From: Acaryochloris sp. CCMEE 5410
Lineage (GTDB): Bacteria > Cyanobacteriota > Cyanobacteriia > Thermosynechococcales > Thermosynechococcaceae
Assembly (NCBI RefSeq): GCF_000238775.2
Contig: NZ_AFEJ02000002.1
Span: forward strand, 1,783,501-1,847,500
Direction of reading: 5' to 3'
Length of the DNA stretch: 64,000 nucleotides
Shown piece by piece: positions 16,723-29,435 of the stretch. Position numbers and translations under genes: made by a program. Under the pieces are notes generated by a model that was given only the letters and a program-made list of their open reading frames with translations, had not been told where the DNA came from and made no database searches. Every line of letters starts with the position of its first letter. The stretch's first letter is position 1.

Positions 16723-17847
16723 TCAACTTATAGAAGGAACAAAAGAATTTTGATTAATGGTTTGGGTCGGATAAATCTGGTTAATAACTTGATGGATTTT
16801 TTGAAAAAAGACGGGCTCAGAAAAGTGTGACAGGGCATGGTCACGGATATATTGATAGTCCCATTCGATCTGTTGCGATCGCACAAGCGCTGCCTGCAAG
16901 GATGAGGCCGTTTGTTGATGGAAAAACACACCTGTTTGACCTGGAACTTGGGTATCGATAACACCACCTGCACCAAAAGAAACCACAGGTGTTCCACTCG
17001 CATTGGCCTCAACGGGAACCAAACCATAATCTTCCAGTGCCGCCACGACCACCGCTTTAGCTTTAGACATCAGATGACAGCGTTCGGCATCAGAGATATA
17101 CCCTAGAAACTCGATATTTGACTTAGCGCGTCGTTCCAAATGCTCCCGTTCCGGGCCATCTCCCATAATTTTTAACGGCCAACCTAACTGATTAAACGCA
17201 TCAATAATAACGTCAACACGCTTATACCCCAACAATCGGGCAGATACCAAGAAAAAATCCTCTTTTTGGTCTGAAAAAGAGAACTTAGAATTATCAATTG
17301 GGTAATTAACTACTATCGCTTGTTTACTGTAAGTCGACTGGATACGGCGGGCGACTTCAGTAGAGTTAGCAATATATAGATCAGGTTCTTGGGCATAGGC
17401 CAGATCAGCCCTCCTCATCACCCGAAACATTTTTTCTATAAAGGGGTAGAGATGCTGATAATCCGCATACTCCCGCAAATATGTTTGGGTATCCCACAGG
17501 AAACGGGTGATGTTATGGCAAAAGCAGATATGTTTGGCATCCGGTCGGGTGCGCACCGCTTTGGCAAAGCTGGTGCTACTGCTAATGATGAGGTCATATT
17601 TCTGTAAATCTAACGCCCTAAACGCTGGGTAATAGAAAGGTGCCAGCAACCTAAAATACCGAGTGGCTCCGGGTAATTTTTGCAGAAGGGTTGTATGGAC
17701 GAGGCGATCTCCCAACTCTATCGTTTGCTGAGGATCATAGAGGGAAGTGAATATATCTGCACTGGGGAAGTGACGACACAACAGCTCGAAAACCCTCTCA
17801 GCGCCTCCGCGCTGGGTCAGATAGTCATGAACTAGGGCAATCTTCAT
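16723..17847 (-). CDS. GT4-family glycosyltransferase (WbaZ/GumH-like)
   Basis: 374 residues. It starts MKIALVHDYLTQRGGAERVF, the typical N-terminus of mannosyl-type transferases such as WbaZ. Later come FFLVSARLLGYKRVDVIIDA (about residue 199), KIMGDGPEREHLE, and a C-terminal A-L-E-D-Y-G-L-V-P-V-E-A-N-A-S-G-T-P stretch with the E-x7-E motif. It is the first visible gene of the polysaccharide operon, ten bases before the Wzc-like gene, with 458 gene-free bases upstream that should hold the promoter. Mannosyl transfer is a guess from resemblance only. Confidence 0.88.
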   Translation of the reverse strand: MKIALVHDYLTQRGGAERVFELLCRHFPSADIFTSLYDPQQTIELGDRLVHTTLLQKLPGATRYFRLLAPFYYPAFRALDLQKYDLIISSSTSFAKAVRTRPDAKHICFCHNITRFLWDTQTYLREYADYQHLYPFIEKMFRVMRRADLAYAQEPDLYIANSTEVARRIQSTYSKQAIVVNYPIDNSKFSFSDQKEDFFLVSARLLGYKRVDVIIDAFNQLGWPLKIMGDGPEREHLERRAKSNIEFLGYISDAERCHLMSKAKAVVVAALEDYGLVPVEANASGTPVVSFGAGGVIDTQVPGQTGVFFHQQTASSLQAALVRSQQIEWDYQYIRDHALSHFSEPVFFQKIHQVINQIYPTQTINQNSFVPSIS

Positions 17848-18305: not shown

Positions 18306-20120
18306 TTATCGATAGTTCTGGGCTTGGGTTTCAAACATCGATGCATAGACCCCGTTGAGGTTCATCAACGTATGATGATTACCTTCTTCAACCATGTAAC
18401 CTTGTGACATCACATAGATATAGTCCGCCATCTTGACCGTCGACAATCTGTGACTAATCAAAATAGCGGACTGATCTTGCATAAGTTCTCGAAACTGCTG
18501 GAACACCTCATACTCAGCTTTGGGGTCCATGGCACTCGTCGGCTCATCCAAAACAATCACTTGAGAATCCCTCAGAAAGGCACGCGCCAGGGCGATTTTT
18601 TGCCACTGCCCAATACTGAGTTCTTCTCCTTGATCAAACATCTTGCCCAAAACAGTGTCGTACCCTTGAGGTAACGACTGAATCACTCGATCGGCCCCGG
18701 ACAGCTGAGCCGCCGATCGGATTCGATACTCATCAGCTGGTCTCTCAATATTCCCTAACTGGATATTATCTCGGGCTGTGAAATGATATTTAGCATAATC
18801 TTGAAAAATGACGCTGATATGGCTTTTTAGCTCAAGCTTACTAAAGCTTTTGAGATCGATGCCATCAATTGTGATACTTCCCTCAGTGGGATCATATAGT
18901 CGGCAAAGTAGTTTAATTAATGTCGTTTTTCCAGAGCCATTCTCGCCCACCAAAGCAATAACTTGACCTGGCTGAAGCTTTAGAGAAACATTGTGAATTG
19001 CTTTACGTTCGGTCGTTGCATATTGAAAGCTAACATTATGAAAAACCACACCAGTAGCCAAAGATTTTGGAAAAGGTTGTGGACATGTTGGCTCCAAAAC
19101 CTTTGATTCTATATCTAAAAATTCATATAGATTCGCTAGGAACAAATTATCTTCATAAAGCCCAGACAGACTCTGTAACAAACCCCTCAGACTATTTTGG
19201 CCTTTTTGTAGCGCTTGATAGTAGAGGACTAAGTCCCCCAACTTAAGAACGCCTGCCAAAGTTTGCTGAACCATATAGACAAAAATGGCAAAGACAAACA
19301 GCCCTGCAATCACCTGAGCACCAAAAAAGGCAAAGGACCGTTTAGAAACTATCCCTACTTTTTCCTTGTAAATAAGTTCTCGTAGTTGGGAATATCTATG
19401 TTTGAAATGCTCTCCTAGATTGAATAGCCGAATTTCTTTGGCGAACAAATCACTGGTTTGTAACCATCCCAAATACATTGCCTGCCGTTCTAGCTGAGTA
19501 CGACGACGTTTCCAGTGGTACATTACCCCTGCAAATTTCATCCGCACCAATACAGTCGGAATCGCAGCCACAAACAGCATTCCGACAATGCCCCAATGCA
19601 GGGCCAACAATAACCCCAACATTGCTAGTAATGAAATTGAACTTTGCCCTGCTAAGGCCAACCGTTCCAAGATGCGGGGAGGCCGATAAGGCGCTTCTTG
19701 TTGGGCGCGCTGCAGAGCATCATAATACTGGGCATTTTCGTAATACTCTAAGTCAGCCGAAATCGATTTAGAGTGGATAATGCCCTGCATATAATCCGTG
19801 ACTCGCTGAGCATGGGCAATGGTAACTAAATCTGATAGAGAGGCAAAGAGGGTCGTACTAATCGTCAAACAAGCGGCAACGATCAATAAAGGCACGATAT
19901 CGTTGAGCGCGGCTGCTCGGTTCGAAAGTGCCAAACTAATCGTCACTTGATCGACAATTAGCTTAGTCATATAAATAGAAAATAAGGGTAGTATGCCCTG
20001 AATGATTACCAAGCCAATGCGTGCCAAAGTCCAGTTAGGACTGCTTTGCCAAACCAGTTTTAAAGCTGGGATGAAGTGCAAAGGGCGTTTAAATCTTGCT
20101 TTGATAAATCCAGTCAGCAT
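18306..20120 (-). CDS. Lasso peptide exporter, ABC transporter with fused permease and ATPase
   Basis: 604 residues. A six-helix transmembrane domain (about 30-330) is followed by an ATPase domain with Walker A GENGSGKTT (392-400), signature LSIGQ (501-505, in place of the usual LSGGQ), Walker B VIVLDEP (about 521) and the switch His in AILISHRLST. This half-transporter layout is that of McjD-type exporters, which secrete the mature lasso peptide and give self-immunity. There is no N-terminal C39 peptidase, fitting a system with a separate B2 protease. It is the last gene of the cluster, 379 bases after the precursors and behind a possible terminator, so it may be expressed at a lower level. 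Confidence 0.87.
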   Translation of the reverse strand: MLTGFIKARFKRPLHFIPALKLVWQSSPNWTLARIGLVIIQGILPLFSIYMTKLIVDQVTISLALSNRAAALNDIVPLLIVAACLTISTTLFASLSDLVTIAHAQRVTDYMQGIIHSKSISADLEYYENAQYYDALQRAQQEAPYRPPRILERLALAGQSSISLLAMLGLLLALHWGIVGMLFVAAIPTVLVRMKFAGVMYHWKRRRTQLERQAMYLGWLQTSDLFAKEIRLFNLGEHFKHRYSQLRELIYKEKVGIVSKRSFAFFGAQVIAGLFVFAIFVYMVQQTLAGVLKLGDLVLYYQALQKGQNSLRGLLQSLSGLYEDNLFLANLYEFLDIESKVLEPTCPQPFPKSLATGVVFHNVSFQYATTERKAIHNVSLKLQPGQVIALVGENGSGKTTLIKLLCRLYDPTEGSITIDGIDLKSFSKLELKSHISVIFQDYAKYHFTARDNIQLGNIERPADEYRIRSAAQLSGADRVIQSLPQGYDTVLGKMFDQGEELSIGQWQKIALARAFLRDSQVIVLDEPTSAMDPKAEYEVFQQFRELMQDQSAILISHRLSTVKMADYIYVMSQGYMVEEGNHHTLMNLNGVYASMFETQAQNYR

Positions 20121-20499
20121 AAATTGCCATGTGACAATGCGTAGTGCGAAACTATCCTAACCCTGTAAGCAGAACTCAGCGAGGGAGATGATCGATATAA
20201 CCGACCTTCACTACAAGTCTGGGTCAAGAGAATCTGCTATGCCGATCACAAAGTCGAAACCTCTGAAAGACCAACCAACAGATTAAAAAGACGAAGTCGA
20301 GAGGACCATAACTCAGCCTAAAAAGACAGCATCACATAAGCTAGGACTCTTGTAGCAAAGCTCAAATCGTTAATACTTGGCATGCCCTACTTAGGAGGGT
20401 GCGATTTTTTCCGTTTCAGCTTAAACAAATAGAGCCAGCATTTGGAAGGCTGACTCTACTCGCTTCAATATTCAGTTGAAAAATAACTGAAAAGGATGA
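20121..20499. other. Spacer between lasso precursors and exporter
   Basis: No third precursor: neither strand shows another YxxPxL leader. The stretch contains a hairpin at 20430-20458, described separately. The remainder has no recognised feature. Its length, unusual in an otherwise tight cluster, suggests that the exporter may also have its own promoter. Confidence 0.45.
20430..20458 (-). terminator. Hairpin downstream of lasso precursor genes, likely attenuating terminator
   Basis: On the minus strand TAGAGTCAGC and GCTGGCTCTA pair over ten bases (one G-T wobble) around a nine-base loop. TTTGTTT follows, a moderate T-rich tail. It is 42 bases after the stop of the first precursor gene. 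Such a hairpin after an abundant precursor message and before the exporter gene is common in RiPP clusters. Confidence 0.55.
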
Positions 20500-20640
20500 C
20501 TATGACGTTACATCATCAATATCACCAGCGGGGATTGTCCCGAAAGGCACATCTGTAGCATTCAATGACGGTGAATTCTTAGTCATATCCTCTACGCTGC
20601 CGTACACCTTCAATTGGGGTGCACCATAAGTTCTCTTCAT
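20500..20640 (-). CDS. Lasso peptide precursor 1 (46 residues)
   Basis: ATG at 20640, stop TAG at 20502-20500. An AAGGAG ribosome site lies 12-17 bases upstream. The leader (residues 1-21) has Y5, P8, L10 and G14 and ends M19-T20-K21, the YxxPxLxxxGxxxxxT pattern bound by the B1/PqqD domain and cut by B2, with Thr at the penultimate leader position. The predicted 25-residue core starts at N22. NSPSLNATD gives a ring of nine, with the N22 amine joined to the D30 side chain; a loop/tail follows, beginning VPFGTIP and ending DIDDVTS. The terminal Ser is a likely site for the cluster's kinase. Asn at core position 1 is unusual, since Gly is commonest. Closely similar to the second precursor. Confidence 0.87.
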   Translation of the reverse strand: MKRTYGAPQLKVYGSVEDMTKNSPSLNATDVPFGTIPAGDIDDVTS

Positions 20641-20722
20641 GGTCTTAGCTTACTCCTTACTTAATCTGTGGCTGTTTTAGCATATGCAAGCATTTGCAAG
20701 TTAACAGCATCTAACATTAGTC

Positions 20723-20773
20723 AATTAGGTGTTTTACCCCCCAGGTCAGCTGTGAAACAATTCACGCTGGACC
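20723..20773 (-). promoter_or_regulatory. Duplicated upstream element of precursor 1 with hairpin
   Basis: 20723-20760 is almost identical (one extra T) to 21061-21097 upstream of the other precursor. On the minus strand 20773-20744 can fold: GGTCCAGCGTGAA pairs with TTCACAGCTGACC over about twelve base pairs with two single-base bulges. A G6 run and TAAAACACC follow. It lies roughly 85-135 bases before the start codon, so it may be part of the 5' leader RNA or of the promoter. Function is unknown; no known riboswitch class is recognised. Confidence 0.5.
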
Positions 20774-20824
20774 AGGACGCCCATATTCTAGCAACAATCA
20801 AAAATTAGTGACTGGATAAAATGA

Positions 20825-20965
20825 CTAGGATGTAATGTCGTCAATATCTCCGGCAGGAATGGTTCCAAATGGCACATCAATAGCATTGATTGATGGCGCA
20901 TTCTTCGTCATATCTTCTACGCTTCCGTAGGTTCTGAGTTGAGGTGAGTCATAAAATTTTTTCAT
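20825..20965 (-). CDS. Lasso peptide precursor 2 (46 residues)
   Basis: ATG at 20965, stop TAG at 20827-20825, with TAAGGAG about 12 bases upstream. The leader has Y5, P8, L10 and G14 and ends M19-T20-K21. The predicted core begins N22: ring NAPSINAID (N22 to D30), then VPFGTIP to DIDDITS. Against precursor 1 the core differs only at core positions 2 (A/S), 5 (I/L), 8 (I/T) and 23 (I/V); the loop is invariant. It comes first in transcription order, 290 bases after the cyclase gene. The two genes and their upstream elements look like a tandem duplication of one cassette. Confidence 0.87.
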   Translation of the reverse strand: MKKFYDSPQLRTYGSVEDMTKNAPSINAIDVPFGTIPAGDIDDITS

Positions 20966-21048
20966 GGCCTTAGCTTGCTCCTTAAGTCATCTACTTTTAT
21001 CAGCTGTTCTGGTTTACTTATATGGGTTTCCATACAAGTTGACAGCGT

Positions 21049-21066
21049 CTAATTAAATTTAATTAG
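21049..21066. promoter_or_regulatory. Perfect 18-bp palindrome upstream of precursor 2
   Basis: CTAATTAAATTTAATTAG is its own reverse complement and directly adjoins the duplicated upstream element. The matching place before precursor 1 (around 20711-20728) keeps only the outer CTAA/TTAG. It could be an operator for a dimeric regulator; no regulator gene is seen in the cluster. Confidence 0.4.
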
Positions 21067-21112
21067 GTGTTTACCCCCCAGGTCAGCTGTGAAACAAGTT
21101 TCTAGCCGGACC
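21061..21112 (-). promoter_or_regulatory. Duplicated upstream element of precursor 2
   Basis: 21061-21097 matches 20723-20760 almost base for base, including the G6 run on the minus strand. The flanking half (21098-21112) has diverged from its counterpart but keeps partial complementarity to the conserved half (GGTCCGGCT against AGCTGACC). The fold here is weaker than at precursor 1. It lies about 95-145 bases before the start codon. Confidence 0.45.
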
Positions 21113-21255
21113 TTGATGCCATTATGTGAGGCATTACCCAGAGGGTAAATGTACCAAACAGACATCAATTCAGCATACAAATCCAGTTAAGCTATTATAG
21201 CTTCTCAAATTTATTGGGGGCATTCCAATCCTTAAATATTCATAAGATTTGATTG

Positions 21256-23223
21256 CTATGACAGGAATTCTAAAGGATTGTCCCTTAGATTGGCTTGTTG
21301 TAGCCAAAGAGTCAGGTTGACGGCAATCCATATCAGTAAAGTATCGTTAGCTTCGGCTTCTCCCCTTTGCCATCGCTGAACTAGCTGACTTAGCTCTTGC
21401 ATATCAAGAAACATCTCAATGGCATCAGGTGGATGACTGAGGACTTGATGGATCAGGTCTATGCCGTACTTTTCTAGAGTATGGTCAAACGCTGTGCCCA
21501 AATTTCCTTTACCGGCACGCCATTGAATTTGGGGAGGGAGAATACCGTCCAGTCCGCGTCGGATAATCAACCGCGTCCAACCATTTTGCATCTTTTGCTC
21601 TTCGGGTAGAGAGACACAAAATTCCACCAACCGCTTATCCCAAAAGGGGAACCTCAATTCCACTTGGGAGGCGGCAGCGGTTCGATCCATTACTTCTAGG
21701 GTCGCAGAGACTAAGCCAGATGTAACGTCAACGATATGTTCGTGACGCTGGGAAGGTTGGGCACCAAAGCGCTGACGACGCAGGTGTTTATAACGCTGCA
21801 GCACGGATGCTCGATCAACAAAGTCTGGGGTGAGGGGGATGGCCCATGGCCTAGCTGGAGACGCCTCAGACGTATTCTGCTGCCCACGGGATTGCCAGGT
21901 TTTGACTTTACCTAAAATTTTGGTAATCTTTGTTTTTTTTAGGAGGGGATTGATGCCAAATTTACGGACATAGGACCGATACAAGGGCCATAAATCGTAA
22001 CCAAAGCTTTGGCAAAACCCCTTCATCTCGCGCCATAACTTGAACCACCGCCCTGCTTTGGCCAAGGTGCGTAAATACCCAACACCATGGGATACCGCCT
22101 GATCACCATCAAAGCCATCCAATAACACCCTGACCGATTGGCTTTGAGCGATTTGATATAAGGCATGGGTTAAATGAGCGTTACAGGCAAATAAGGGTTC
22201 GTCTTGGAGAGCCAGCATATGCTGATAATCGGTCCAGGGGCTGAGTTGATCGCCTTGTACATACTGAGGCTCGATGGGTCGCTGATGAATCACGGCATTC
22301 ATAAATTCCTGCTCATCAGATGCCGTAATTTCATTAAACACGGCGGAGAAAGTGGGGAATTTAGTGGTCTCTTGCGCCTCCTGTCTCAACTGGGCTGTCA
22401 TACAGGTAATCGAGGAAGAATCAATTCCGCCACTTAACATGGTGCCGATGGGAAATGCACTTCTCAGACGGCAGCGCACGGCTTCGGTGAAAATGGATTG
22501 AAACTGTTCCGCATAGGCTTGATCGGAGTCCAGCTGAAGTTCAAAATCAGGATCGAGGGACCAATAGGCTGAGATGTTCAGACTATTTTGGCTCACTGTC
22601 ATCCGATGGGCAGGAGGGAGACGAACAATCTGCTCATAAAAAGTCGTTTCTGCATCAAATAGCATCAGGGTCAGATAGTCAGCGACCCTGGTTTCATTGA
22701 GGGCTTTAGGCACTTCTGGCAAATGAAACAGCGCTTTCATTTCGCTGGCAAAGGCAAAGACTTGTTCGGAGGCATAGTAAAAGAAGGGCTTGACGCCAAA
22801 ATGATCGCGAGCACAAAACAAATGCTGTTGAGTTGCATCCCAAAGGGCAAAGGCAAAATCACCCAAGAGATACTCAGGGCATTGTTCGCCCCATTTTTCG
22901 TAGGCAGCAAGAATAAGGGCGCTATCGGTAATCACTGCTGAGGGAGACTCTTCCAGACCCAGCTGGATCATTAGGTCCGCACGATTATCAATCCGGGCAT
23001 CTGCCGTCAGCACTAAAGTTTGGGACGTATTGCTGAGGGGGAGGGTTTCAAACCGGGATTCTGGGGTGGTCTGTAATAAACAATGACCCAAGCCAACCCT
23101 ATCTTGACTCCATTCATTGGTTCCATCCGGTCCCCGATGGGACAGGGATTGGACCATTTGATGCAAATAATCACGCCTTTCAGGGAGAGGGTGAGGATAT
23201 ACAAAGCCAGTAATTGCGCTCAT
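21256..23223 (-). CDS. Lasso cyclase, asparagine synthetase homologue (C protein)
   Basis: 655 residues. The N-terminal glutaminase-like domain (about 1-200) starts MSAITGFVYP: the Cys2 nucleophile of true asparagine synthetases is absent, so it cannot use glutamine that way. The C-terminal synthetase domain has the ATP pyrophosphatase loop LSGGIDSSS (about 264) and the later VELRFPFWDKRLVEF. In lasso systems this enzyme adenylates the ring Asp/Glu side chain and closes the macrolactam with the freed core N-terminus. It lies between the precursor genes and the JmjC gene, 20 bases downstream of the latter. A plain asparagine synthetase is the alternative; missing Cys2, the B1/B2 genes and the precursors argue against it. 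Confidence 0.9.
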   Translation of the reverse strand: MSAITGFVYPHPLPERRDYLHQMVQSLSHRGPDGTNEWSQDRVGLGHCLLQTTPESRFETLPLSNTSQTLVLTADARIDNRADLMIQLGLEESPSAVITDSALILAAYEKWGEQCPEYLLGDFAFALWDATQQHLFCARDHFGVKPFFYYASEQVFAFASEMKALFHLPEVPKALNETRVADYLTLMLFDAETTFYEQIVRLPPAHRMTVSQNSLNISAYWSLDPDFELQLDSDQAYAEQFQSIFTEAVRCRLRSAFPIGTMLSGGIDSSSITCMTAQLRQEAQETTKFPTFSAVFNEITASDEQEFMNAVIHQRPIEPQYVQGDQLSPWTDYQHMLALQDEPLFACNAHLTHALYQIAQSQSVRVLLDGFDGDQAVSHGVGYLRTLAKAGRWFKLWREMKGFCQSFGYDLWPLYRSYVRKFGINPLLKKTKITKILGKVKTWQSRGQQNTSEASPARPWAIPLTPDFVDRASVLQRYKHLRRQRFGAQPSQRHEHIVDVTSGLVSATLEVMDRTAAASQVELRFPFWDKRLVEFCVSLPEEQKMQNGWTRLIIRRGLDGILPPQIQWRAGKGNLGTAFDHTLEKYGIDLIHQVLSHPPDAIEMFLDMQELSQLVQRWQRGEAEANDTLLIWIAVNLTLWLQQANLRDNPLEFLS

Positions 23224-23243
23224 GGGGGCAGAAGGATCAAAAT

Positions 23244-24494
23244 TTAGACATCAGAAGCGGGGGCAATCTCTTTAATCATCAAAAATCCCTCTTGGATCAA
23301 GTTCTGGGCTAAGGACAATCGTCCAGCATCGTTAATCAAGCCACCGATGTCTTTGACGGCCAGATAGGGATGGTCAATTAGATCGGTCAGAGAAGCCGCT
23401 AGAAAAATAGGAAAGGTTAGACTTTTTTGGTAGAAGTTCAAAGCAATTTGGGTTGGACTTCTATCAACGGAGAAAAGAATATTAGGTCGGCGGGCAACAA
23501 CAGAGTTGAGATTGAGCTGTGACAGATGAAGCAGATCTTGGAATCGACCTTGGTCTTCAGATTTGCGATCGCACAGAAATACCTTATGCTTCCGCTCTAC
23601 CAGCTCTTCCGTCTTCACTTTACTCATTAGGGCCTGACTCAGGGTTTGAAACGACTCATAAAAAGCCTGCTGTTGCTCAGAACTGGAAAAACCGTGGGGA
23701 ATCGCTTTCCGAAAAGCTGGGTCAGCCTGGGCGATGGTGACCAACTCCTCTAAGAGTTCATAGGCGAAGGTGGGATATAACCCTAGGGATGCATGCACGG
23801 AGGTGGTCTCTTGACTAGCCGCTTGATGGACTACCCCCCGAGGAATATAAAGCAAATCACCGGGCTGGAGCATCACCGTTAATTCTGGCTCCGCCAGTTC
23901 ATGGCGGCCAATACTTTGATCTCGGATGTGAGAGGGAAGCTCAACAGGGGAATGGTAGAGTTTCCATTCCTTCGCCCCCGTAATTTGGAGAATAAACACA
24001 TCATGTTCATCGTAATGAGGGGCTAAGCCCTGGGCCTGGGGAGGCGTGATATAGATATTGGTTCGTAGCTTAAACTTCAGCTCGCATTCTAGGGCACTAC
24101 AAAAATGTCTCAGCTTGGGAATTTTCTTATGCGCCCCATTGATGGTCAAGGTTAAGCCCTGATGCAACAGGCTATAAAGCCTGTCGTTATTAATAAAATA
24201 CTGTTGGGATTTTGAGTGGCGATCGCACCAGTCTTCCAGGCTGAGCTTATTACCCTGATCCACTAGGCGAAAGTTATTGTAATCCGCCAACAAAGCTTTG
24301 TTTTGCAGCAGGAGATCGATGTCATCTGGGTTTAAAACAGACTCATAAAATGAGGCATCATTCCTTGGCAAATACAGGGTTTTTGTTTCCCAATAAGTCT
24401 GGAAAAAATCCTCAATCGTGCAAGGAGAGATTAAACGGGCAAATTGAGACTCAACCTTCATGGGCCAGGATGTGATTTTCAACGAGGGTAGCAA
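23244..24494 (-). CDS. JmjC/cupin-type 2-oxoglutarate Fe(II) oxygenase (RoxA-like)
   Basis: 416 residues. The cupin core has PHYDEHDVFILQITG (about 159) with the HxD metal pair and QPGDLLYIPRGVVHQA (about 210) with the distal His, the pattern of the Cupin_4/RoxA hydroxylase group. Such enzymes hydroxylate side chains of proteins or peptides. The frame opens at 24494, overlapping the kinase gene by 44 bases; a second Met at 24461 (MKVESQFARL) leaves an overlap of 11 and may be the true start. Its place in the cluster suggests beta-hydroxylation of a precursor residue. Its target is not known and there is a second, unrelated oxygenase three genes upstream. Confidence 0.82.
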   Translation of the reverse strand: MLPSLKITSWPMKVESQFARLISPCTIEDFFQTYWETKTLYLPRNDASFYESVLNPDDIDLLLQNKALLADYNNFRLVDQGNKLSLEDWCDRHSKSQQYFINNDRLYSLLHQGLTLTINGAHKKIPKLRHFCSALECELKFKLRTNIYITPPQAQGLAPHYDEHDVFILQITGAKEWKLYHSPVELPSHIRDQSIGRHELAEPELTVMLQPGDLLYIPRGVVHQAASQETTSVHASLGLYPTFAYELLEELVTIAQADPAFRKAIPHGFSSSEQQQAFYESFQTLSQALMSKVKTEELVERKHKVFLCDRKSEDQGRFQDLLHLSQLNLNSVVARRPNILFSVDRSPTQIALNFYQKSLTFPIFLAASLTDLIDHPYLAVKDIGGLINDAGRLSLAQNLIQEGFLMIKEIAPASDV

Positions 24495-25356
24495 TGTCCG
24501 GCAGTAAGTCGAGGGAGGCTGGCCGTAAGAGACGCAAAAGCGGCACCTGTTGAGCCAAGAGCATTAGTTGCTTAAAATGGTTGGCTCCTCGCTCCTGCAA
24601 TAAAGTTTGCTCAAAGCGGGTGACATAGGAGTTTTGCATCAAATGTTGAATAATCTCCTGGGGCGGTAACGGCTTAATGGCGACTTCATCCCCCTGTCCC
24701 AGCACAAAAATATATCGCAGGGGCAGAATGTCAGACATAAAGCCAGAAGAGAGCTGATGATTGCGCTTTTCTAAGCGGGCCCCTAATCGCGGTAAATCTT
24801 CGGGCTGCTTGCCAATACAGGTGACCGCATCAGGCCACAGCTTAATTTGTGGAAAGGCAGGCTGCACCTGAATTTGATGGCGTTGGACCTCTAGGGCCAC
24901 CACATCATCCGCAATCAAGCTATGGCCCCGATCATGCAAGGTTGCTGCCATCGTGGATTTGCCCCATCGCTTTTGACCAATAAAGGCCACTGCTTCTCCT
25001 TCTAACGCCACAGCACTGGCATGGAGGACCAAAAATCCGCGTTGATGCAGCACAACTCCCATGATCGCCCCCAGAATAAAGAGTCGGAGACGATCCTCAT
25101 CGAGATCAATCTCTAGATCAATCAGAACATCCTGGCCTTCCTGAATCAAAAACGTACCCACCCCTTGCCAATATAAATACATTCCTGAATCGGTATTTTG
25201 ATAGCAATGCAGGGTGTTTCCCGTCTGCAAAGGACTATCGGTAATGGCATCGAAATGAATCCAGACATCCGCATCCGTTGCCAGGGTGGGAATCAGTTCT
25301 GGCAGTTTAATTTCAGACTGAAGGGTCAAGCCATAGGCTGAATAAAAGTGGGACAT
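24451..25356 (-). CDS. HPr-kinase homologue, probable lasso precursor kinase
   Basis: 301 residues. The N-terminal part is variable. The kinase core has LVLHASAVAL (about 109), Walker A FIGQKRWGKSTMAATL (about 126) and HSLIADDVVALE (about 145), matching the C-terminal catalytic domain of HPr kinase/phosphorylase. It lacks the N-terminal regulatory domain of classical HprK, as in the lasso kinases PadeK and ThcoK, which phosphorylate the C-terminal Ser of precursor peptides. Both precursors here end in Ser. Cyanobacteria do not generally run a HprK-controlled sugar PTS, which also favours a peptide role. It overlaps the JmjC gene, so they are coexpressed. Confidence 0.85.
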   Translation of the reverse strand: MSHFYSAYGLTLQSEIKLPELIPTLATDADVWIHFDAITDSPLQTGNTLHCYQNTDSGMYLYWQGVGTFLIQEGQDVLIDLEIDLDEDRLRLFILGAIMGVVLHQRGFLVLHASAVALEGEAVAFIGQKRWGKSTMAATLHDRGHSLIADDVVALEVQRHQIQVQPAFPQIKLWPDAVTCIGKQPEDLPRLGARLEKRNHQLSSGFMSDILPLRYIFVLGQGDEVAIKPLPPQEIIQHLMQNSYVTRFEQTLLQERGANHFKQLMLLAQQVPLLRLLRPASLDLLPDIATLVENHILAHEG

Positions 25357-25485
25357 AGCAATTAGCGGCTATCCAGACTCAAAGAATAACGTTTTTAAGG
25401 GATTTTTGCCTTCAGCAGTCAGGGTGACCTATGGGAGCAAAGTAGCAGATCATCAGCGGGACAAACCTGCAGATTGAAACCGCCC

Positions 25486-26409
25486 TTACCGTTGGTCCCT
25501 AGGCAGTAATTTCTTGAGTTTGGATCTTAGTTTTTTGAGCAAGGGTTGAGGGGGTTGAGGCTCGTTTGCCGTAAACAGTTTATAAATTAATGCTTCGAAC
25601 CGGGGATTTGGCGCCATAGAGTCCGGATGAATGATGGCATCTAAATTCAAATTAAAGGTTGGCAACTCATTTAAACCTTGGTTCCCTTGGGTATGACTGC
25701 CTTGAGTGCCAATATTGGAAATCAGATTGACCTTCGGTACAACGGTGAGACCGTCCTGAGCGAGACAAGAATAAAACCATGGAATATCCCAAACCTGTTG
25801 GTTCTGATAGGCCCAGTCAAATAATTGGGTCACCCAATCCGTGAGGGCCTGTTGCTCAAAAAATTGGGGTTGGGTTTGCTTGAACTGGGGCCATCCCGTC
25901 ATTTTGAGGTCGTTGTCTTGCCACGCTCTGCGCCAAGAGGCCCATCCCCAAGACACAAAAAATTTAGAGAAGGCATAGGTCTGGGGAATAGAAAGGGTAT
26001 CTCGCAAAAAATTACTCCCCGAGATGGTCTTGACTTGGGATTGATGGCGGTATTGAGCTAACATCGCTTGGCAAAATGGGAAAAAGCTGGGATGGGGAAG
26101 ACAGTCATCTTCTAAAATGATTGCTTCTTCCACCTGAGAGAACACCCAATTTAACCCCTGGACATTACAACACCGCCCTCCCAAGTTCGAGTCGGCAAAA
26201 CGAGTGAACACCTCGCATTCCCAATTCACTTGATCAACAATCGCTCTTGCTTGTTGGCATAAATCGTCATCCTCAGGCACATCAGCTCTCGGACCATCCG
26301 CAACGATAAACAAGGTTGACGGTTTGACTTGGGCAATCGCCGCAAATACCTGATGCGAATAGTGCGGACGATTGAAAATATGAAGGGCAACGGGAGTGGG
26401 AAAAAGCAT
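25486..26409 (-). CDS. HlpA-like glycosyltransferase in lasso cluster
   Basis: 307 residues, single GT-A type domain. The start FPTPVALHIFNRPHYSHQVF, 'FIVADGPR' (about 34) and AIILEDDCLPHPSFF (about 96, acidic metal/nucleotide-sugar motif) are characteristic of proteins annotated as hemolytic protein HlpA-like. FFVSWGWASWRRAW (about 160) is the conserved Trp-rich acceptor region. No signal or membrane segment is visible. It sits inside the cluster, 15 bases after the 2OG oxygenase, and so may glycosylate the peptide, perhaps on a hydroxyl made by an oxygenase or a native Ser/Thr. A link to surface polysaccharide is the alternative. Confidence 0.8.
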   Translation of the reverse strand: MLFPTPVALHIFNRPHYSHQVFAAIAQVKPSTLFIVADGPRADVPEDDDLCQQARAIVDQVNWECEVFTRFADSNLGGRCCNVQGLNWVFSQVEEAIILEDDCLPHPSFFPFCQAMLAQYRHQSQVKTISGSNFLRDTLSIPQTYAFSKFFVSWGWASWRRAWQDNDLKMTGWPQFKQTQPQFFEQQALTDWVTQLFDWAYQNQQVWDIPWFYSCLAQDGLTVVPKVNLISNIGTQGSHTQGNQGLNELPTFNLNLDAIIHPDSMAPNPRFEALIYKLFTANEPQPPQPLLKKLRSKLKKLLPRDQR

Positions 26410-26423
26410 GGGAGAAGCAGAAT

Positions 26424-27032
26424 TCAGACAAACCAGCTGACAATGGTGAAGCGCTCACCGTGGGTGACCGGTTTAACTTCATGCCAGAGATCGGATCGGA
26501 AGGCGATCAGCTGGCCTTGTTCCGGTTCTAGGGGAAAACCATAGTTTTGACCGCGAGCATCGTTGAGTAATCCGTAGAGGGCTAAGGCTCCCCCTCCAAA
26601 GGTCTGAGGTCTAGGCTCAGCAGACATGCCGTTGAGAAAAATAATTAAAGACACTAATCGATTTTTTTCAAACTTGGAGCCCGGTAGGCTCGGATCGATC
26701 ACATCTCGATGCAGGCCAAAAAAGTCGCCCACTTGATAGCGGTAGCAGGAGGGAGGTTCAAGGGCATGGAGTTGAACCTCAAAATGAGTTTCTAATCGCG
26801 GTTTGATGGCCATTAAGCGCTCACGAATACCCTTGATCGTGGCTGGGCTGATTTGCAACTGGCCTGTTTTCCGCCGACTATCATCGGTCACAGCCTCCCC
26901 GTATCGGGTAAGACGAGCAGGCTCACAGGGGCAGGTCTGTGCTTCCGTGAGGTAAGACTCACAGAATTGTGGTTCTAAAAAGTCAGGGTCTACAAATACT
27001 CCCAAGCGTTCAAAAAAGTCAGCCCTTGGCAT
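26424..27032 (-). CDS. 2OG-Fe(II) oxygenase, prolyl 4-hydroxylase-like
   Basis: 202 residues, one double-stranded beta-helix domain. The facial triad is visible: H108 and D110 (GLHRD), H184 (DLWHEVKPV), with R194 (GERFTI) for 2-oxoglutarate. Near 145 is GGGALALYG, and SLIIFLNGM precedes it. These are the marks of the P4Hc/2OG-FeII_Oxy_3 group. It stands 70 bases after the B2 gene and 15 before the glycosyltransferase. It probably hydroxylates a residue of the lasso precursor (core Pro3, Pro11, Pro16 or an Asp are candidates). Iron/2OG hydroxylases modifying Asp are known in lasso clusters. Confidence 0.84.
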   Translation of the reverse strand: MPRADFFERLGVFVDPDFLEPQFCESYLTEAQTCPCEPARLTRYGEAVTDDSRRKTGQLQISPATIKGIRERLMAIKPRLETHFEVQLHALEPPSCYRYQVGDFFGLHRDVIDPSLPGSKFEKNRLVSLIIFLNGMSAEPRPQTFGGGALALYGLLNDARGQNYGFPLEPEQGQLIAFRSDLWHEVKPVTHGERFTIVSWFV

Positions 27033-27102
27033 TGCTCTGAACCTTTTATTCAGTGATAAAAAAATATTTAATATTTTAGGTCAAGTCCCCAGAGGATGGG
27101 AC

Positions 27103-27573
27103 TTAGATTTTGGACTCAAACGATGGCATCGGCGTAAAGCGAGATAAGTCCTTCACAAAACCCATGATCACTTGCCCTTGTAGTTCAACCCAGGCATGGG
27201 CTTCAAGGGAATGATCCTCTGCTTTTGCTACCCCAATTTTTAGCTCGGGTTCATAGCCTCGTCGGCAAATTAAGACTTGCGTAACAAGGGCTCGGGCTAA
27301 ACATTTCACGTGTCCTGGCATAAAGCGGCTACTGGTATTCACTGCCCAGACCACTTTTCCGACAGTTCTACGACTAATCTTTCTGAGGGTAGGGGGTTGA
27401 TAGTAGGCAGGGGGGTTGTGAAAATTGACCAGCCATTTCTGCAGGATTTTGAAAGGGAGCAACCACAATCCCAATCGAACCAAACCCAACAAAACGTAGG
27501 TTTTGATCAGGAGAGTGCGATCGCAACTTTGCAACCGCAAAAATTTAAGCAGTGGCGACATCTTTGATCTCAA
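27103..27573 (-). CDS. Lasso peptide leader peptidase B2 (transglutaminase-like)
   Basis: 156 residues. A hydrophobic N-terminal stretch (about 20-50) is followed by the Cys protease core: CLARALVTQVL with C91, SLEAHAWVEL with H126 and a following acidic residue (D142 region) as catalytic triad candidates. This is the transglutaminase-like fold of B2 proteins, which cut the leader after the penultimate Thr. It overlaps the end of the B1/PqqD gene by 29 bases, the usual split-B arrangement. The frame opens at 27573; Met at 27561 is an alternative start. Catalytic residues are assigned from spacing only. Confidence 0.87.
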   Translation of the reverse strand: MRSKMSPLLKFLRLQSCDRTLLIKTYVLLGLVRLGLWLLPFKILQKWLVNFHNPPAYYQPPTLRKISRRTVGKVVWAVNTSSRFMPGHVKCLARALVTQVLICRRGYEPELKIGVAKAEDHSLEAHAWVELQGQVIMGFVKDLSRFTPMPSFESKI

Positions 27574-27850
27574 TCAAATCTGATTCAACCATTTCATTTA
27601 GCAACCTGAGGACATCTTGTTCACACTGATCTGACTCAACTTCGTACTGGTCCAAAATTTGGTCGCAGATGTCTTTAACGGAGCGAGGTTGCTGAACTAA
27701 ATTCCAAATACTTGCACCCACTTCATTCAAACCGAAGTACATTCCTGTCTTCAGGTTGAGAATTACTGATTCCCCTGCTAAGTCAGATGAGACTTGCTCT
27801 GGGGTCGCAACAACCGTTGTATTCGTTGAAATAGTGGTAGTCAAACTCAT
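27545..27850 (-). CDS. PqqD-like lasso peptide B1 protein (RRE)
   Basis: 101 residues. The PqqD-like winged fold is shown by VILNLKTGMYFGLNEVGASIW (about 28-48, one run shortened here in meaning: N-L-K-T-G then F-G-L-N) and the helical end DQCEQDVLRLLNEMVESDL. These RiPP recognition elements bind the leader through the Tyr and Leu of YxxPxL, both present in the two precursors. It is the first gene of the cluster, and the next gene overlaps it by 29 bases. The 187 bases upstream (27851-28037) are AT-rich and should hold the operon promoter; no confident -35/-10 pair is called. Confidence 0.87.
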   Translation of the reverse strand: MSLTTTISTNTTVVATPEQVSSDLAGESVILNLKTGMYFGLNEVGASIWNLVQQPRSVKDICDQILDQYEVESDQCEQDVLRLLNEMVESDLIEIKDVATA

Positions 27851-28037
27851 AACCCTTTAAAACAATTAAATAATGCAGATTTCGTATAAGTTAGCACAGA
27901 TATTTTATATTTATCCGTAGGAATTAAAACATTTAAGGATTAGCTTTGGCGTGATTGTAGCCCTGCTTTCCGCTAAAAGACCTAGACCTATTTTAAACGG
28001 TATTGATGATGCCACTGCCAGACTGTATTACTGCAAC

Positions 28038-29237
28038 TTACTGATTGGAATGGCAGAACTTTTCAACGCAGCGCACAAAAATCTCCACACCCATAGCTAA
28101 GGCAGTCTCATCAAAATCGAACTGGGGATGGTGATGGGGATAGGCTAAGCCGCGATCGGCGTTGGCTGAGCCTAAAAAGAAGTAACAGCCCGGCACCTCT
28201 TGTAAAAAGAAGGACATGTCTTCTCCACCCATGGTTTGGCAATTGGGAACCACGCCTGTCGGTGTTTCAATCACTTCAGTACTGACGGAGCGAATCAAAT
28301 CTGCGATCGCAGCATCGTTAATCACGGGGGGATACAGTCGCCAGTAATTGAGGTCGTAGGTGGCTCCCCAGCTTTGGCAAATCCCTGTGAGAATATCCTG
28401 CATGCGTGGCTCAATCAGATGGGCCAATTCTGGATCAAAGTAGCGAACCGTACCGCTCATAAAGCTGGAGTCAGCAATTACATTAGACGCGGTACCTGCA
28501 TGGAGCTGTCCGATAGTCACTACGGCTGAATCGAGGGGATTGACATGGCGAGCCACAATCGCTTGCAGGGCGTTGACGATTTGAGCGCTAATCACTACTG
28601 CATCAGTGGTTTGATGGGGCATGGCTCCATGGCCTCCCTTGCCCTGAATCTTGCATTCAAATAAATCCACAGCAGCCATCAGTGGACCCGATTTCACCCC
28701 AACCGTACCGAGGGGAAGGTTATTCCATAGGTGGAGGCCAATAATGGCATCGACTTGCGGGTTTTGCAGAACACCTGCTTCAATCATGGGCTTGGCCCCA
28801 CCGGGAGACTCTTCCGCAGGCTGGAAAATGATCTTGACCGTACCGGCAAAGTCTTGGCGATGCTGAGATAAGTAGCGAGCGGTTCCTAGGGCAATGGCCG
28901 TATGCCCATCATGGCCACAGGCATGCATCACTCCATCATGGCGTGACCGATAGGAAACCGTATTCTCTTCCTGAATGGGCAAGGCATCCATATCGGCGCG
29001 AATGGCTAATACTGGCCCCAGTTGCTCTCCAACGATGGTAGCCATTATGCCCGTTTCAGCAATGGCAGTTTGATGTGCAATGCCCCATTCTGTCAGGCGT
29101 TGAGCAACAAATTCAGCAGTAAGATGCTCTTTGAATCCAAGTTCTGGGTATTGATGCAGATGCCGTCGCCAAGACACCAAGTCCAGTTGTTGGATATCAG
29201 AACGAATAGAGGTATCAGATGGAGGAGAAGACAGCAT
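28038..29237 (-). CDS. M20D-family amidohydrolase
   Basis: 399 residues. Metal-binding motifs of the M20 family are visible: MHACGHDGH (about 107), FQPAEESPGGAKPM (about 140), IIGLHLWNNLP (about 166) and the final QTMGGEDMSFF / HHHPQFDFDE near the C-terminus. This branch (IAA-amino acid hydrolase/N-acyl-amino acid amidohydrolase, HipO-like) cleaves N-acyl or amino-acid conjugates using two metal ions in the cytoplasm. Its upstream region faces away from the lasso cluster, although it is on the same strand; no feature ties it to the lasso pathway. The precise substrate is not predictable. Confidence 0.9.
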   Translation of the reverse strand: MLSSPPSDTSIRSDIQQLDLVSWRRHLHQYPELGFKEHLTAEFVAQRLTEWGIAHQTAIAETGIMATIVGEQLGPVLAIRADMDALPIQEENTVSYRSRHDGVMHACGHDGHTAIALGTARYLSQHRQDFAGTVKIIFQPAEESPGGAKPMIEAGVLQNPQVDAIIGLHLWNNLPLGTVGVKSGPLMAAVDLFECKIQGKGGHGAMPHQTTDAVVISAQIVNALQAIVARHVNPLDSAVVTIGQLHAGTASNVIADSSFMSGTVRYFDPELAHLIEPRMQDILTGICQSWGATYDLNYWRLYPPVINDAAIADLIRSVSTEVIETPTGVVPNCQTMGGEDMSFFLQEVPGCYFFLGSANADRGLAYPHHHPQFDFDETALAMGVEIFVRCVEKFCHSNQ

Positions 29238-29435
29238 GATGCTTTTACCAAAGCGGGGAAATGGCCTATTACCTTCCTAGAATACTATTCCTAGAATTTT
29301 CAAAACCGTTAATCCAAGAGCCATGGTGGCTACAATCACCAAGAGAAGCATGGCCTAGCTTGTTGTTTCAAATAGGGATGTAGCATTCTTGTGTATAACC
29401 ATTAGAGAAGCATTCGTTCAAAAATTATTAGTCTG

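Follow-up and report, generated by a model that had tools for sequence, protein, structure and literature searches.

Does a single cyanobacterial gene cluster make lasso peptides that carry a phosphate, hydroxyl groups and possibly a sugar? The question is raised by a stretch of 64,000 bp from Acaryochloris sp. CCMEE 5410, hereafter the window, which belongs to a genome of 8.09 Mb in 23 contigs. Its minus strand holds, at 18306-27850, a full lasso peptide gene set (B1, B2, cyclase, two precursors and the exporter D), and among these genes lie four more of tailoring types. Judged from its sequence, the lasso cluster is genuine and intact, and its tailoring enzymes, each of a known kind, form an uncommon combination. 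We give a probability of about 0.6 to the reading that two class II lasso peptides, close relatives of each other, are made here and modified by the full pathway proposed below.

Gene content and precursors

The genes are listed in order of transcription, and family calls are scores against curated Pfam and NCBIfam cut-offs.

27545..27850, minus strand: B1, PqqD-like leader-binding protein (RRE); NF033536 86.9 bits, cut-off 80; PF05402 E 3.8e-22
27103..27573, minus strand: B2, leader peptidase with Cys91, His126 and Asp142; NF033537 118.5 bits, cut-off 33
26424..27032, minus strand: 2-oxoglutarate (2OG)-Fe(II) oxygenase with His108, Asp110, His184 and Arg194; PF13640 57.5 bits, cut-off 27
25486..26409, minus strand: glycosyltransferase-like protein with EDD at 100-102, called from the family matches of its homologues
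24451..25356, minus strand: HPr-kinase homologue of the paeninodin type with the H-K-D-D residues His112, Lys133, Asp150 and Asp151
23244..24461, minus strand: JmjC (PF08007) oxygenase with His160, Asp162 and His223 (numbering from TTG 24494); PF08007 107.2 bits, cut-off 22
21256..23223, minus strand: lasso cyclase (C), asparagine-synthase-like; NF033535 902.5 bits, cut-off 525
20825..20965, minus strand: precursor A1, core NAPSINAIDVPFGTIPAGDIDDITS, with Y-17, P-14, L-12 and T-2; NF033528 29.7 bits, below the cut-off of 33
20500..20640, minus strand: precursor A2, core NSPSLNATDVPFGTIPAGDIDDVTS, with the same leader residues; lasso_cyano NF033528 33.3 bits, above the cut-off of 33
18306..20120, minus strand: D, ABC exporter; PF00005 116.9 bits, cut-off 25, E 1.3e-33

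An earlier note, made from these letters alone, had described a full lasso cluster with four tailoring-type genes and a cyanobacterial host. That description holds: all the named genes lie on the minus strand where the note had placed them, B1, B2 and the cyclase score above curated cut-offs, the 2OG oxygenase, glycosyltransferase-like, kinase-homologue and JmjC genes share the strand, and the host is an Acaryochloris. B1 is the sole PqqD match of the genome at E 0.001, and the cyclase is its sole match at E 1e-100. The B2 gene overlaps the B1 gene; its Cys and His are conserved in all 98 aligned loci, and the Asp column in 42 of the 98, being different or not covered elsewhere. The JmjC gene most likely starts at ATG 24461 rather than at TTG 24494, because its orthologue in a second Acaryochloris genome (G390) has an in-frame stop just upstream of the ATG; from this start it overlaps the kinase gene by 11 bases.

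The kinase homologue is identified by its H-K-D-D residues, which 100 of the 105 kinase-matching loci share. The glycosyltransferase-like protein is tentatively identified through its homologues, since 8 of 23 aligned members match GNT-I (best E 6.3e-5) and 7 of 23 match Glycos_transf_2 (best E 7.5e-4). No relative of it was found in the PDB. The earlier note calls this protein HlpA-like.

In lasso peptides, an acidic ring-closing residue is expected at core position 7-9. Both predicted cores have Asp9, comprise 25 residues and end in TS, so that each has a C-terminal Ser; their calculated masses minus water are 2494.22 Da (A1) and 2484.17 Da (A2). A published ruler for lasso leaders puts YxxPxL between -17 and -12 and a Thr at -2 (PMC10368454; this and the other papers are cited from excerpts). 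It fits both precursors exactly with an Asn1 start, and the core start was therefore placed at Asn1, in agreement with the 25-residue core of the earlier note. Asp9 and a terminal Ser are found in all five cores read of the window's cassette type (A1, A2 and those of the Acaryochloris genomes G386, G390 and G391).

How uncommon the combination is

Cyclase surroundings were compared in three sets. The first comprises 386 cyanobacterial genomes spread evenly over the phylum, 20 of which have a cyclase match at E 1e-100 (three matches in genome G096 were read as two stretches); the second, 29 genomes of the family; and the third, 79 loci from the best 80 listed in a scan over genomes of 84,980 species. 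The sets overlap, at least seven loci of the third repeating contigs of the first two, and the total of 114 loci includes two (L225 and L226) that continue clusters already counted. Homologues of the extra proteins occur in 105 (kinase), 10 (2OG), 6 (JmjC) and 1 (glycosyltransferase) of these loci, and all four genes occur together in the window alone. The same holds for the intervals from B1 to D, read for open reading frames (ORFs) of at least 120 residues: among 84 intervals, which include repeats and exclude loci cut by contig ends, only the window has four extras of these kinds. The interval of L128, on a contig titled archaeal, has five ORFs with the kinase alone recognised. The nearest sets are kinase, 2OG and JmjC in G391, and kinase, JmjC and glycosyltransferase in the cyanobacterium G382. 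The combination, for which the earlier note could name no characterised precedent, is matched nowhere else among the 114 loci. Excerpts of the open-licence literature on lasso peptides with these tailoring enzymes, on cyanobacteria and on Acaryochloris contain no cluster with this set, and in those on lasso peptides and JmjC no lasso cluster is credited with a JmjC. Lasso peptides glycosylated on Ser are already known, as are ones bearing several modifications (PMC13352647), so a multiply modified lasso is in itself nothing new.

The kinase does not belong to what is special. The earlier note had counted it among the unusual additions, but it is near-universal in the lasso loci compared, with a match in 105 of 114 (some counted twice) and, by set, in 19 of 20 phylum loci, 12 of 13 family loci and 75 of 79 loci of the wide scan. 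What sets the window apart is therefore not this standard component but the 2OG oxygenase together with the JmjC oxygenase and the glycosyltransferase. Two lasso-type loci with a kinase match, L106 and L128, lie on contigs titled Euryarchaeota and Methanobacteriaceae.

The 2OG oxygenase is nearly confined to Acaryochloris among lasso loci. Its HDHR residues are intact in all 10 matching loci (repeats counted); repeats aside, these loci outside the window belong to G118 and the Acaryochloris genomes G386, G387, G388, G389 and G391. At E 1e-12 it matches in 7 of the 386 cyanobacterial genomes, namely the window's own, G118 (in a lasso locus, 43% identity) and five of one family in another class. 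The iron ligands of the JmjC oxygenase are likewise intact in 6 of 6 lasso loci (repeats counted), which outside the window are those of G382, G390, G391 and Scytonematopsis contorta (L073). Its closest relative in the phylum sample is in the G382 lasso locus (48%), and the other 20 matching genomes reach 28-35%. Plasmid-borne JmjC matches, among the 30 of 187 listed, have 24-30% identity, with no annotated lasso gene in the three neighbourhoods read, in one of which the JmjC-like gene adjoins a LanM lanthipeptide synthetase. Another oxygenase gene was observed in a lasso locus of the distant cyanobacterial genome G096 (L065 6251-7234): one protein with both 2OG-FeII_Oxy_3 and PqqD matches, which seems to be an oxygenase fused to a leader-binding domain.

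Several known enzymes resemble the JmjC oxygenase. The closest solved structures are the histidyl hydroxylases NO66 and MINA53 (best E 3.4e-30), which target His, whereas the window's cores have none. BpmG and PbsQ-related JmjC/cupin hydroxylases also stand in clusters for ribosomal peptides, but not for lasso peptides, and PbsQ hydroxylates ornithine, which the window's cores lack (PMC12257519). Fusions of PF08007 JmjC with an RRE-like domain are described from fish and algae, with bacterial homologues of ~30% identity in surroundings like those of ribosomally synthesized and post-translationally modified peptides; the excerpts name no lasso context for them (PMC12710340).

The proposed pathway and its rivals

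In the proposed pathway, B1 would bind the leader through Y-17, P-14 and L-12, and the kinase, aided by B1, would phosphorylate Ser25 of the linear precursor. Both iron/2-oxoglutarate oxygenases would hydroxylate the linear precursor before threading; B2 would cleave after Lys-1, the cyclase would close the ring between the amine of Asn1 and the side chain of Asp9, enclosing the tail, and D would export the product. The glycosyltransferase-like protein would probably add a sugar, most simply on the phosphoserine in the manner of pseudomycoidin, or on an introduced or native hydroxyl. By analogy with characterised systems, the product is most likely two 25-residue lasso peptides with an Asn1-Asp9 ring, phosphorylated at Ser25 and hydroxylated, and a sugar on it is plausible.

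These steps are modelled on known clusters. Phosphorylation of Ser25 on the linear precursor follows paeninodin, whose kinase targets the C-terminal Ser at that stage (PMC9266682). The paeninodin, ThcoK and SyanK clusters resemble the window in joining lasso genes to an HPr-kinase homologue with His-Lys-Asp-Asp and a C-terminal Ser, but unlike the window they are mentioned in the excerpts without an oxygenase or glycosyltransferase. Hydroxylation before threading follows canucin A, whose cluster also has a 2OG-Fe(II) oxygenase: CanE, from Streptomyces, beta-hydroxylates the C-terminal Asp of the linear precursor with the aid of B1, which makes Asp a precedent site, the likeness to the window's enzyme being by description only (PMC9266682). 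The help expected from B1 is drawn from canucin and from the Bradymonas bsf cluster with BsfK and BsfN (PMC9266682, PMC10368454). The latter shares the B1-assisted lasso kinase and the YxxPxL ruler with the window, but differs in its Ser3 target, a leader Ile at -2 and a ring that closes on Gly1 (PMC10368454). Pseudomycoidin, made with the kinase PsmK and the nucleotidyltransferase PsmN, is a phosphoglycosylated lasso ending in Ser; its cluster, like the window's, has a kinase and a candidate gene for sugar addition, but the window has a glycosyltransferase-like gene in the cluster and no PF14907 nucleotidyltransferase.

A number of observations weigh against this pathway. The window kinase homologue falls below its family cut-offs (PF07475 29.8 vs 33.3; TIGR04352 34.4 vs 200). 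Three loci with both kinase and 2OG have cores that end otherwise than in Ser (NV in G118, SV in G387, AAG in G389), a terminal Ser is found in only 40 of 116 candidate precursor ORFs of kinase-bearing loci (by a loose filter that admits some non-precursor ORFs), and BsfK modifies Ser3 of the core rather than the last residue (PMC10368454). No precursor residue tracks the 2OG or the JmjC gene among the cores compared. The cores of the window, G118, G386, G387 and G389 pointed to a ring Asn as the target of the 2OG enzyme, but this reading was rejected: G391 has the 2OG gene together with NAAGVSTVD, and the cores of L114 and L146 have NSD with no 2OG homologue found. A Phe or Val after Pro11 as the JmjC site, suggested by the Acaryochloris JmjC loci and L073, was rejected as well, as G386 has such a residue without JmjC; the JmjC of G382 accompanies quite different precursors with nothing similar. 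The structure model of the JmjC protein (4 sequences) has a mean predicted local distance difference test score (pLDDT) of 45 and is too poor for use, also for judging whether its C-terminus has an RRE-like fold; matched to an alignment of 104 B1 proteins (hhalign), this end gives a probability of 43-49% over 35-36 columns. That of the glycosyltransferase-like protein (single sequence, mean pLDDT 36) is equally unusable, and even with E values as high as 1 allowed this protein has no match in Pfam or NCBIfam. A polysaccharide locus adjoins the cluster, and the glycosyltransferases of the window and G382 stand apart in the tree on long branches (1.62 and 1.02 vs a median of 0.28; placement unsure), such that they may have been acquired separately or be present by chance.

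In 41 of the 116 candidate ORFs there is no terminal Ser, but close to the tail they carry an internal motif such as Gly-Ser-x-Asp, and 35 fit neither pattern. Cyanobacterial loci with such internal motifs include L027-L034, L080-L105 and L141, and the Ser of the motif may be what the kinase modifies there.

Among the rival explanations, the one that survives best concerns the sugar. The glycosyltransferase-like gene could be a passenger with its function in the neighbouring polysaccharide locus, in which case the product would be only phosphorylated and hydroxylated; we regard this as a serious possibility, if a somewhat improbable one. Besides the polysaccharide border and the separate tree positions, it is favoured by how common the family is (84 of 386 cyanobacterial genomes at E 1e-20) and by the lasso stretches read of six other Acaryochloris genomes, which hold no homologue while three of the six have one elsewhere. 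Yet the gene follows the 2OG gene by 14 bases on the same strand, surrounded by lasso genes and outside the polysaccharide part, and the long branches of both copies are such as a change of substrate would give. G382, the only other lasso locus with a homologue, independently has kinase, JmjC, D, a PF14907 nucleotidyltransferase and, 2 bases on, a glycosyltransferase of the same family. PF14907 is the family to which PsmN presumably belongs, and this adjacency is the best hint that the glycosyltransferase gene serves the peptide, as PsmN glycosylates pseudomycoidin (PMC8498205). The tailoring role given to this gene by the earlier note is accordingly backed by its place among the lasso genes and by its homologue in G382; the family's frequency and the polysaccharide locus nearby speak against it, and the role on the peptide is a putative one.

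PF14907 genes also occur outside the cluster. At least one match is present in 7 of 7 Acaryochloris genomes; the one nearest the window's cluster lies at window position -2603 to -1353 (L240 4898-6148), ~20 kb beyond D, and a run of glycosyltransferase-like genes sits between it and the cluster. Contig C371 of G391 (L054) has a second lasso locus with cyclase, kinase and PF14907 nucleotidyltransferase in a row, as in pseudomycoidin.

It is unlikely that only one of the oxygenases acts on the peptide while the other acts elsewhere or on only one of the two precursors. G390 and Scytonematopsis (L073) do have JmjC with no 2OG homologue in the locus, and G386-G389 have 2OG in the locus with no JmjC match in the genome, three of these four genomes being 87% complete. 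G391, on the other hand, keeps both oxygenases and the kinase in the same order, and the iron ligands of both enzymes are intact. The ratios of nonsynonymous to synonymous substitution rates (dN/dS) against G390 are 0.066 for JmjC, 0.036 for the kinase, 0.060 for B1 and 0.047 for D, from which these four genes are judged to be under purifying selection; in many of the other comparisons synonymous sites were saturated and no ratio could be given, and the glycosyltransferase lacks an orthologue to compare. A decaying cluster that makes nothing is very improbable: the cyclase and kinase of G386 are read in broken pieces, which may point to decay within the genus if it is not an assembly error, but in the window all eight genes for enzymes and transport have uninterrupted reading frames of full length with intact motifs, and dN/dS is low where it can be estimated.

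The reading of two modified class II lasso peptides can be taken further, to all four enzymes acting on one peptide with a phosphate, a sugar and two distinct hydroxylations, to a JmjC oxygenase that carries a leader-binding domain of its own and represents a new class of lasso tailoring enzyme, and to a genus that swaps everything behind B1 at one site; in this strong form we consider it doubtful. Should the proposed pathway be true, lasso tailoring would extend to a JmjC oxygenase, stacked with a kinase and a second oxygenase.

Probable exchange of cassettes in Acaryochloris

A lasso cyclase match is present in 7 of 7 Acaryochloris genomes (that of G386 being below the family cut-off and read in pieces), and in 6 of 6 other Acaryochloris genomes at least one of the window's flanking genes stands beside it. 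The two flanks in question are outside the pathway.

28038..29237, minus strand: upstream flank common to relatives, M20 peptidase family gene
16723..17847, minus strand: downstream flank common to relatives, GT4-type glycosyltransferase of the polysaccharide locus

The M20 gene is common to G386, G388 and G389, and the GT4 gene to G386, G387, G390 and G391. G387 and G390 showed no M20 match over the stretches read, nor did G389 show a GT4 match within ~5 kb. Between the flanks there are two types of cassette. The first, B1-B2-[2OG]-[glycosyltransferase]-kinase-[JmjC]-C-A-D with cores ending in Ser, is that of the window, G390 (B1-B2-kinase-JmjC-C-A-D), G391 (B2-2OG-kinase-JmjC-C-A-D over two contigs with 141 identical end bases) and G386 (B1-B2-2OG-kinase-C-A-D over two contigs). 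The second, B1-B2-2OG-C-A-kinase-D with cores ending NTAFPSV or NTAFPAAG, is that of G387 and G389, with G388 cut after C.

Protein identity between the window and G388 is 92% for M20 and 88% for B1, and drops to 52% for B2 and 41% for the cyclase, compared with 81% between the cyclases of G388 and G389, which share a cassette type. The main DNA match between the window and G388 (27448-29341, 81.6%) ends ~125 bases into B2, past which there is one 248-base piece of the cyclase at 69.8%. Because similarity stays high in M20 and B1 while the genes after B1 differ strongly, we infer that recombination has probably replaced the cassette downstream of B1 while its place on the chromosome stayed the same. 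Such a site, at which cassettes can be swapped, would be a good case for studying how a bacterium changes a secreted peptide. The natural combinations in the genus (kinase with JmjC, kinase with 2OG, kinase with both, and all four) would allow modifications to be assigned by mixing genes.

A search of the cluster with Rfam gave one match (E 0.95, 21.8 bits vs a gathering score of 90), which was dropped as chance. An 18-base pattern, GCTGACNTGGGGGGTAAA, occurs on the minus strand upstream of A1 (21070-21087) and of A2 (20733-20750), and also upstream of the G391 precursor (L225 13861-13878). With at most one mismatch, these are its only three copies across seven Acaryochloris genomes; with 3 mismatches allowed, 4 of 100 shuffled versions of the window gave two or more matches. 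In G390 the pattern GCTGACNTGGGGGGTAAA is present in degenerate form, and the element is possibly a control site.

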